From Alphaproteobacteria bacterium (lineage in GTDB: Bacteria; Pseudomonadota; Alphaproteobacteria; SMXQ01), in assembly GCA_009380075.1 (NCBI GenBank), contig WHSO01000005.1:22646-86645 (forward strand): 64,000 nt of DNA, in the 5' to 3' direction. The translations under genes and the position numbers were made by a program. Below the pieces are notes generated by a model, which was not told the DNA's origin, ran no database searches, and saw nothing but the letters and a program-made list of their open reading frames with translations. Below, in pieces: positions 3,683 through 6,763 of the stretch. Each line of letters starts with the position of its first letter. Position 1 is the stretch's first letter.

Positions 3683-4339
3683 TCATGAATTGGGCAGGTG
3701 GTGGTTGCCGGGCGTGCCGATCATGGCGAGGAACTCGCGTCGCGTCTTCTGGTCGGTGCGGAAGCCGCCGAGCATCCGGCTGGTGACCATCGTCGTTCCC
3801 GGCTTGTGGACGCCGCGGGTGGTCATGCACTGGTGCGCCGCCTCGATCACCACGGCGACGCCCTTGGGCTGCAGCACGTCCTCGATGGCCGCGGCGATCT
3901 GGGCGGTCATTTTTTCCTGGATCTGCAGGCGCTTGGCGTAGGCTTCGACCAGCCGGGCCAGCTTGGAGATGCCGACCACGCGCTTGTCCGGCAGATAGGC
4001 GATGTGGGCCTTGCCGATGATGGGCAGCAGGTGATGTTCGCAGTGGGATTCGAAGCGGATGTCCTTGAGCATCACCATTTCGTCGTAGCCGCCGATTTCC
4101 TCGAAGGTGCGGGCGAGGATATCCGTGGGGTCCTCGTCGTAGCCGCGGAAGAATTCCTCCCAGGCGCGCACCACCCGTTCGGGGGTGCCGCGAAGCCCTT
4201 CGCGGTCGGGGTCGTCGCCGGCCCAGCCGATCAGGGTACGAACCGCGGCCTCGGCCTCCATGCGGCTGGGCCGCTTGGGCGCACGGGGTTTGGCTTCAAT
4301 CACGTTGCTGCGGTCGGTCTTCACGGGCCTGCCTCTCAC
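3683..4339 (-). CDS. folE: GTP cyclohydrolase I
   Basis: Converts GTP to 7,8-dihydroneopterin triphosphate, the entry step to folate and also to queuosine precursors. It has 218 residues, normal for type I enzymes. The zinc site is visible as the Cys and His of [12 protein letters not shown] and the second Cys of HQCMTTRG. The substrate-binding stretch [10 protein letters not shown] and the conserved GLRGTPERV near the N-terminus are also present. It is followed by the queuosine locus only some 15 kb away, so it may serve both pathways. It is on the same strand as apaG (88 bp gap). A short basic N-terminal extension precedes the conserved domain. Confidence 0.97.
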
Positions 4340-4427: not shown

Positions 4428-4820
4428 CTAGTGGATCATCGGTCGTTCGCCGGGCGAATCCAAGGAAAAGGCCGGGATGTCCACTTCGAGGCCGTGGCCA
4501 TCCACGGTCTCCATATAGTAGCGCCCCGCCATGATTCCGGAAGGCGTGGTCAGCGGCGTGCCCGAGGTGTATTCGAAGCTCTCCCCCGGCGCCAGCACCG
4601 GCTGTTCGCCGACGACCCCTTCGCCGCGGACTTCCTGGGTCCGGCCGGCCGCGTCGGTGATGCGCCAGTAGCGCCGCTTCAACTGGACCGTCCGGTCGCC
4701 GTGGTTCTCGATCTTGACCTTGTAGGCCCAAACGTAGCGGTGATCGCCCGGTTCGGACTCCTCATCGAGATAATAGGGCTCCACCGTGATGACGATGGAA
4801 TGGGTGGTCGCGGAATACAT
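4428..4820 (-). CDS. apaG: Co2+/Mg2+ efflux protein ApaG
   Basis: Small protein of 130 residues with the ApaG (DUF525) fold, an immunoglobulin-like beta sandwich. Its exact role is unsettled; mutants in enterobacteria affect cobalt resistance and diadenosine tetraphosphate levels. Conserved blocks are VEPYYLDE, YVWAYKVKIENHG, LKRRYWRITDAAG and the glycine-rich YTSGTPLTTPSGIMAGRY. The start MYSATTHSI at 4820 is chosen over an in-frame ATG 57 bp upstream because it begins the family homology and is preceded by an AGGAGG ten bases away. It lies between folE and metZ on the same strand. Confidence 0.95.
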   Translation of the reverse strand: MYSATTHSIVITVEPYYLDEESEPGDHRYVWAYKVKIENHGDRTVQLKRRYWRITDAAGRTQEVRGEGVVGEQPVLAPGESFEYTSGTPLTTPSGIMAGRYYMETVDGHGLEVDIPAFSLDSPGERPMIH

Positions 4821-4917
4821 GAACTCGTTTCCTCCTGGCCGCCTGGCCGCCTTTTGACGGGGCGAGCATGACCCCAAGAGTGAACCATGCGGGCGCGGGT
4901 GTCAAAGCGTGGCTGCC

Positions 4918-6120
4918 TCAGCCCGCGGCGGCGGCAAGCGCCTGGTCGATGTCCTTGATGATATCCTCCGGATCCTCCAGCCCCACGGAAAGGCGCACGT
5001 AACCAGCTGTAATTCCTAGATGATTTCGCTCCTCCTCGGACAGGCGCTGGTGCGTGGTGGTGGCCGGATGGGTGACCAGGCTCTTGGCGTCGCCCAGGTT
5101 GTTGGAAATGTCGATCAGTCGCAGCGCGTTAAGGAATCGGAAGGCGCCGGCCTTTCCTTTCGGCACCTCGAAGCCGACCACGGTGCCGAATCCGGACATC
5201 TGCCGCGCTGCAAGGGCGTGCTGGGGGTGGCTCGCAAGGCCCGGATAGACGACGCGCGGCAGCGTGCCCCGCGCTTCCAGCCGGGCGGCGATCCGTTCCG
5301 CCGAATCGCACATGGCGCGCATCCTGAGGTCCAGCGTCTCCAGACCCTTGAGCAGGATCCACGCGTTGAACGGGCTGAGCGCGGGCCCGGTATGGCGCAG
5401 GAACATGCGCAGGTGGTCTTCCATGTACTCCGGATCGCCGAGGATGGCACCGCCGAGCACGCGGCCCTGGCCGTCGATGTGCTTGGTGGCGGAATACACC
5501 ACGATGTCGGCGCCGAGCGCCTGGGGCTTCTGCAGCACCGGCGAGGCGAAGACGTTGTCGACCACCAGCCGCCCGCCGGCCTTGTGCACGAGTTCCGCCA
5601 CCGCCGGCAGGTCGATCACCTCGAGGCCGGGATTGGACGGCGTTTCCAGGAACGCGGCGCGCACCCCCCCGGCCAGCGCCTTTTCCCACTGGCCGATATC
5701 GGCGCCATCCACCAGGACCACCTCGATCCCGTAACGCGGAAGGATTTCGCTCACCACGTAGAGGCAGGAGCCGAACAGGGCCCGCGACGCGACCAGGCGG
5801 TCGCCGGCGCGCAGCATGCACGCCAGCGAGGCGAAGACCGCGGCCATGCCCGACGCGGTCGCGCGGCAGGCCTCCATGCCTTCGGCCAGTGCCATGCGCT
5901 TCTCGAACATGGCGACGGTGGGGTTGGAGAACCGCGAATAGACGAATTTGGTGTTCTCGCCCTTGAACGCCGCCTCGGCCTCTTCGGCATTGGCGTAGAC
6001 GTAGCCCGAGGTGGCGAACACCGCCTCGCAGGTTTCCTGGAAGTTGGACCGGTCGAGCCCGCCACGGACGAGGTTGGTCCGGGTGCGATACCCGTTGCGG
6101 CCCGCGCTTTGATCACTCAT
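4918..6120 (-). CDS. metZ: O-succinylhomoserine sulfhydrylase
   Basis: PLP enzyme of the Cys/Met metabolism family, 400 residues, predicted to form homocysteine from O-succinylhomoserine and sulfide in methionine synthesis. The cofactor lysine is K213 in SATKHIDGQG. SRFSNPTV and ETPSNPGLEV are typical family blocks, and KSLVTHPATTTHQ near the C-terminus fits MetZ/MetB. The start at 6120 has an AGGAGA Shine-Dalgarno six bases upstream. An in-frame upstream start at 6270 is rejected because it lies inside the SAM-II aptamer. Expression is predicted to be switched off by SAM through the leader at 6172-6272. O-acetylhomoserine use cannot be excluded. Confidence 0.93.
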   Translation of the reverse strand: MSDQSAGRNGYRTRTNLVRGGLDRSNFQETCEAVFATSGYVYANAEEAEAAFKGENTKFVYSRFSNPTVAMFEKRMALAEGMEACRATASGMAAVFASLACMLRAGDRLVASRALFGSCLYVVSEILPRYGIEVVLVDGADIGQWEKALAGGVRAAFLETPSNPGLEVIDLPAVAELVHKAGGRLVVDNVFASPVLQKPQALGADIVVYSATKHIDGQGRVLGGAILGDPEYMEDHLRMFLRHTGPALSPFNAWILLKGLETLDLRMRAMCDSAERIAARLEARGTLPRVVYPGLASHPQHALAARQMSGFGTVVGFEVPKGKAGAFRFLNALRLIDISNNLGDAKSLVTHPATTTHQRLSEEERNHLGITAGYVRLSVGLEDPEDIIKDIDQALAAAAG

Positions 6121-6134
6121 CTGCGTCTCCTGTG

Positions 6135-6171: not shown

Positions 6172-6199
6172 TAAAAAACCCCGACCGATGGGGCCAGGG
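6172..6199 (-). terminator. Intrinsic terminator in the metZ leader (SAM-II expression platform)
   Basis: Read on the minus strand, CCCTGGCC (6199-6192) pairs with GGTCGGGG (6186-6179) over eight pairs including two G-U, with a five-base loop, followed by six T. The same CCTGGCC can instead pair with an earlier GGTCGGG copy (6219-6213) that begins inside the 3' end of the SAM-II aptamer. This gives a mutually exclusive antiterminator. SAM binding should hold that copy back and allow termination. Confidence 0.8.
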
Positions 6200-6217
6200 C
6201 GGAAACCGCGCACCCGA

Positions 6218-6272
6218 CCTTTTAGCGACATGTTTAACGTGGGCGCAAGCCGGCCGGCACAAATGACCACGT
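6218..6272 (-). ncRNA. SAM-II riboswitch aptamer upstream of metZ
   Basis: The minus strand reads ACGTGG, then a loop with TCATTTG and GGCTTG, then CCACGT (P1, six pairs), then TAAACATGTCGCTAAAAGG. This matches the SAM-II consensus: P1 at the 5' end, a long loop, and a 3' strand ending GUCGCUAAA that pairs back into the loop. Here GGCTTG (6251-6246) pairs with CATGTC (6232-6227) with one mismatch and one G-U. SAM-II elements are known upstream of metA, metZ and metX in Alphaproteobacteria, and the downstream gene here is metZ. The aptamer starts at or next to the predicted transcription start. Confidence 0.9.
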
Positions 6273-6278
6273 AGGGGG

Positions 6279-6307
6279 TTCATAGACCCAAGCACGCCGG
6301 TGGTCAA
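6279..6307 (-). promoter_or_regulatory. Sigma70-type promoter for the metZ riboswitch transcript
   Basis: Minus strand TTGACC (6307-6302), a 17-base spacer, then TATGAA (6284-6279). Seven bases after the -10 box is A at 6272, the first base of riboswitch helix P1. The promoter lies in the 51 bp between the rrf2 stop and the aptamer, so metZ has its own transcript. Confidence 0.75.
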
Positions 6308-6325: not shown

Positions 6326-6763
6326 CTAGCGGTCGTGACGGTGGCCGGACCGTGATCCTCCACCATGCGCGTTGCCGTCGATCAGGTCGGCAAGGCTGTA
6401 TTGCGACAAGGCGGCGATGAAGGCATTGCGTGCGACCTCCAGTGCGGCGTGAAAGCGCTTGTCGCCGGGCTGTACCTGGGGCCCGCGTGTCCCGACATGG
6501 CGACGGAAGGTAGGCTCGACCAGCTCGAGGACTTCGTCGAGACGAATGGCGCCGGCGGGCCTCGCCAGGGCGATCCCGCCACCCTTGCCGCGATAGCCGA
6601 TGATGAACCGGTGCCGCGCGAGATTCTGCGACACTTTCATCAGATGGTTGCGCGAGATGCCGTAGGCTTCCGCGACGGCGGTGATGGGAATCTTCCTGCC
6701 CGGGCGCGCACCCAGGTACATCAGTACCCGGATCGAGTAGTCGGCATGTTTGGTCAGCATCAT
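6326..6763 (-). CDS. Rrf2 family transcriptional regulator lacking all cysteines
   Basis: 145 residues. The N-terminal winged helix (LTKHADYSIRVLMYLGA, YGISRNHLMKVSQNLARH, GYRGKGGGIALAR) is close to NsrR. NsrR and IscR bind an Fe-S cluster through three cysteines in the loop after the recognition domain. Here that loop reads EPTFRRHVGTRGPQVQPGDK and the whole protein has no cysteine. It is therefore unlikely to be an Fe-S sensor and may act like CymR-type Rrf2 regulators, which lack a cluster; that is inference. The C-terminus is Gly/His/Arg rich. It lies immediately upstream of the metZ promoter on the same strand. Its own upstream region holds a direct repeat CGTAA-N5-CGTAA at 6777-6791. 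Confidence 0.9.
   Translation of the reverse strand: MMLTKHADYSIRVLMYLGARPGRKIPITAVAEAYGISRNHLMKVSQNLARHRFIIGYRGKGGGIALARPAGAIRLDEVLELVEPTFRRHVGTRGPQVQPGDKRFHAALEVARNAFIAALSQYSLADLIDGNAHGGGSRSGHRHDR

Follow-up and report, generated by a model that had tools for sequence, protein, structure and literature searches.

A complete but ordinary SAM-II RNA switch in the leader of metZ in an alphaproteobacterium

The minus strand of the 64-kb stretch of DNA analysed here (the window) carries a short leader in front of the methionine gene metZ, in which the heptamer GGTCGGG occurs twice. How would this leader control metZ, and is its duplicated heptamer a new kind of switch? The first-pass annotation had read the leader as a SAM-II aptamer followed by an attenuator. 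All coordinates that we checked were reproduced from the minus strand: the promoter, helices P1 and P2, both copies of GGTCGGG, the single CCTGGCC, the terminator and its six T residues. We conclude that the metZ leader is a complete but ordinary SAM-II RNA switch, which belongs to a known kind of riboswitch and offers little novelty. With a probability of about 0.9, it controls transcription with OFF logic.

Aptamer, promoter and target gene

The SAM-II (SAM_alpha, RF00521) aptamer was recovered by a covariance-model search, the check that the first-pass annotation had named as able to refute its reading. Cmscan matched RF00521 to positions 6280-6202 of the minus strand with 65.6 bits (E = 1.7e-12; gathering score 36 bits), covering model positions 1-79 of 79. 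This was the only SAM-II match in the 3.5-Mb assembly. Helix P1 (6237-6272) joins ACGUGG at 6272-6267 with CCACGU at 6242-6237; its outermost A-U pair was not conserved in the alignment of the order. The pseudoknot helix P2 (6214-6257) joins CCGGCC at 6257-6252 with GGUCGG at 6219-6214, by five Watson-Crick pairs and one G.U pair. Hence, the P1 stem and the P2 pseudoknot between loop 1 and the 3' tail that define SAM-II were present in the window as well as in the order, and a gene for methionine or SAM synthesis, metZ, lies downstream on the same strand. By analogy with the known family, the aptamer is expected to bind SAM.

The proposed promoter can be read at 6279-6306, with TTGACC at 6306-6301, a 17-nt spacer and TATGAA at 6284-6279. 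The two hexamers together scored below the threshold of a strict consensus scan, and TATGAA has only four of six consensus matches. Since the strict scan gave nothing, the promoter was judged by conservation. In 11 of 11 genomes of the order, the -35 element had five of six matches at the corresponding place; the -10 element was weaker, with three to four of six. Across the class, TTGAC was found within 60 nt upstream of 88% of 139 SAM-II elements, versus 2.7% in shuffled sequence. As in the known family, transcription is predicted to start near 6272, at the first base of P1.

The assignment of the target gene also held. The open reading frame at 4918-6120 (minus strand, start at 6120) encodes a protein of 400 amino acids that matched the O-succinylhomoserine sulfhydrylase MetZ (TIGR01325, 566.6 bits versus a cut-off of 510; PF01053). 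Its Shine-Dalgarno sequence GGAG (6127-6130) is located 6 nt before the ATG, outside the aptamer and the terminator. Downstream of metZ, in the same orientation, lie ApaG (4428-4877) and GTP cyclohydrolase I (folE, 3683-4339), which may be co-transcribed with it and thus be under control of the riboswitch.

Just upstream of the leader, at 6326-6763 on the minus strand, lies a gene for an Rrf2-family regulator without any cysteine. Its best NCBIfam score was NsrR-like but below the NsrR cut-off. A tblastn match to this regulator was found at seven of the 11 metZ loci of the order, with zero or one cysteine in the matched part. Judged from these sequences, it probably holds no iron-sulphur cluster in the usual way.

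Terminator and antiterminator

An intrinsic terminator (6173-6200, minus strand) directly follows the aptamer, as had been claimed. Its stem of 9 bp is formed by GCCCUGGCC at 6200-6192 and GGUCGGGGU at 6186-6178, encloses the 5-nt loop CCAUC, and runs into six U residues at 6178-6173. One copy of GGTCGGG (6219-6213) overlaps the 3' strand of P2, the other (6186-6180) is part of the 3' arm of the terminator, and CCTGGCC (6198-6192) can pair with either of them. Pairing with the first copy yields an antiterminator (6192-6219), in which GGUCGGG is shared with P2 and a small inner hairpin extends the pairing. The leader thus has a terminator, stem and U-run, between aptamer and gene, and an antiterminator built from one strand of the aptamer and one of the terminator. 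Both are features expected of an OFF-riboswitch acting by attenuation.

At low SAM, the 3' strand of P2 (GGUCGGG, 6219-6213) would be unpaired and could join CCUGGCC (6198-6192); the antiterminator would then occupy the 5' arm needed for termination, and the polymerase would read through into metZ. At high SAM, the ligand would stabilise the pseudoknot P2 and thereby sequester this strand. CCUGGCC would then pair with the second copy at 6186-6180, the terminator would form at the U-run, and a transcript of about 100 nt would be released, spanning about 6272 to about 6172. The direction of this switch is modelled on the known family, and comparison with relatives supports it well.

Nearest-neighbour energies, calculated for isolated helices rather than by simulation of co-transcriptional folding, were comparable for the antiterminator (-14.8 to -15.8 kcal/mol), the terminator (-14.8 kcal/mol) and the P2 duplex in the absence of ligand (-11.7 kcal/mol). 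Nearly equal energies, with one competitor that depends on the ligand, fit what an OFF-switch requires. The minimum-energy fold of the whole leader, with pseudoknots excluded, was no better than that of shuffled sequences (z -0.84) and contained a mixture of the helices. Hence, folding energies by themselves are no proof of a switch with two states.

Conservation in the order and the class

Each of the 11 genomes of the order, which here coincides with the family, contained exactly one SAM-II element. In an alignment of the leaders of ten genomes, standard pairs made up 98.3% of the cells in P2, 94.3% in the antiterminator and 93.3% in the terminator. When the partner strand was slid by one to three columns, the paired cells dropped to 66% or less for all three helices. 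The fourth pair of P2 varied between GU, GC and AU. Changes on both sides occurred in one pair of the antiterminator (UA, UG, CG) and one pair of the terminator (GC, AU, GU), and these two pairs use one common column of the 5' arm of the terminator. At the third position of the antiterminator, the terminator arm has A or G, and the aptamer strand remains compatible with it. Covariation within the order was weak because most positions were invariant, and did not clearly exceed the shuffle controls for P1 and P2 or for the antiterminator.

A SAM-II match was found in 190 of 385 genomes drawn from the class. We surveyed 139 of the class leaders, mostly better-scoring matches, so that the fractions below should not be read as those of a random sample. 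A metZ-like gene was located downstream of 123 of them. Terminators were sought by a scripted search past the conserved GCUAA (-9 kcal/mol or better, start within 46 nt), and 115 of the 139 leaders had one within this distance of the aptamer core. In 98 of these 115, the 3' strand of P2 could pair with the 5' arm of its own terminator at -8 kcal/mol or better, compared to 31% for letter-shuffled arms. The leaders' own arms also paired more strongly than arms permuted among loci (-10.56 versus -9.94; one of 5000 permutations was as good), a comparison uncorrected for relatedness. The claimed overlap of antiterminator and aptamer, with mutually exclusive pairing, was therefore conserved across both order and class.

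The usual layout in the class is AAAAGGTCGG...CCCTGACC...GGTCGGGGTTTTTT, which makes the duplicated heptamer the class norm. As far as these sequences tell, it is the common SAM-II expression platform in Alphaproteobacteria and nothing special. The remaining 24 of the 139 leaders had no terminator by the search thresholds given above, and one of them (L011) ends at a contig edge; other platforms may be in use in these leaders. Four metZ leaders of the Rhizobiales/Roseiarcus type (L046, L049, L052, L053) have GATCGGGG in P2 and lack a T-run terminator nearby, and judging from sequence they probably use another expression platform. Four others (L019, L021, L024, L027) have GGGCCG as P2 strand, no convincing terminator close by, and a downstream gene that is not metZ-like.

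Rival readings and known systems

Could the aptamer be real and the hairpin at 6200-6178 nevertheless end most transcripts whatever the SAM level, with control exerted through the promoter or RNA stability? In Sinorhizobium meliloti, the terminator downstream of the metA SAM-II element is predicted to be unresponsive to SAM, and the medium affects met promoters as well as the half-lives of the RNAs (PMC9373788). However, a constitutive terminator does not need any pairing between its 5' arm and the P2 strand, and it is this pairing that was conserved in the order and in most class leaders with a terminator, which makes this reading improbable. Another rival is chance resemblance between the terminator arms and the aptamer strand, with GGTCGGG recurring in G+C-rich DNA: the window has a G+C content of 67% and contains 24 copies over both strands. 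Yet with the seven copies on its minus strand, a second copy within 40 nt should turn up in only about 0.4% of cases. The duplicated layout is also seen in distant families of the class, whose loops and spacers differ, and shuffled arms pair this strongly only about one third as often. We therefore consider coincidence next to negligible.

Blocking of the ribosome-binding site upon SAM binding, as in metX-type SAM-II, is the textbook mechanism (PMC10907184), and in the window alone UUCCUGUG (6154-6147) is able to base-pair with CACAGGAG (6134-6127), the Shine-Dalgarno stretch. In metX-type elements, which share the aptamer fold and, by homology, the ligand, the ribosome site is inside P2 and hidden directly, whereas here P2 competes with the antiterminator. 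The Shine-Dalgarno sequence of metZ at 6130-6127 is separated from the upstream P2 strand by more than 80 nt, which include a complete terminator, and the second hairpin near it is not conserved in relatives, so that purely translational control is highly improbable. A combination of two layers in this species, in which UUCCUGUG and CACAGGAG pair after read-through past the SAM-II terminator, CCGGUCCC/GGGACCGG compete with this pairing, and translational control is thereby added, is very unlikely as well.

Between the terminator and the metZ start, at 6167-6127 on the minus strand, CCGGTCCC/GGGACCGG can form an 8-bp hairpin, in which TTCCTGTG is complementary to CACAGGAG. A second ligand-sensing or Shine-Dalgarno switch in this stretch was considered and rejected, because an Rfam scan matched no family there and the Shine-Dalgarno pairing was absent in relatives.

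The preferred reading, a SAM-II switch that attenuates transcription, agrees with published systems, and the novelty that had been claimed for the duplicated heptamer therefore falls away. Attenuation by SAM-II, including before metZ, has already been published (PMC1273637, PMC2258182, PMC9373788), and SAM-II terminators and OFF logic were put forward in 2005 and 2007. In 2005, Corbino et al. (PMC1273637) reported the element together with the position of its promoter and the terminators often found past P2, and proposed the OFF logic. Our leader shares with it the sequence and fold of the aptamer, a promoter a few bases before P1, an intrinsic terminator between P2 and the gene, and a methionine gene downstream; the two differ in nothing substantial, and only the precise loops and spacers are particular to this organism. 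According to Scheuer et al. 2022, the metZ SAM-II of S. meliloti is predicted to terminate transcription, and in rich medium its riboswitch RNA of about 100 nt (RZ) increased while metZ mRNA decreased (PMC9373788). The aptamer class, the target gene, the predicted SAM-dependent intrinsic terminator and the expected length of the terminated RNA are alike here, and we count these data in favour of the OFF-switch. In S. meliloti, metA is preceded by another SAM-II, whereas this genome has one SAM-II, and the experimental support comes from S. meliloti only.

The metZ leader is a clean and fully readable example of this switch; it comes from a small alphaproteobacterial order whose 11 examined genomes all carry the element. 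The design seen in the class survey differs from the textbook view, in which SAM-II acts on translation, and this balance was already noted in 2007. Our comparison of leader sequences suggests that SAM-II elements before metZ usually have an antiterminator that shares the P2 strand.
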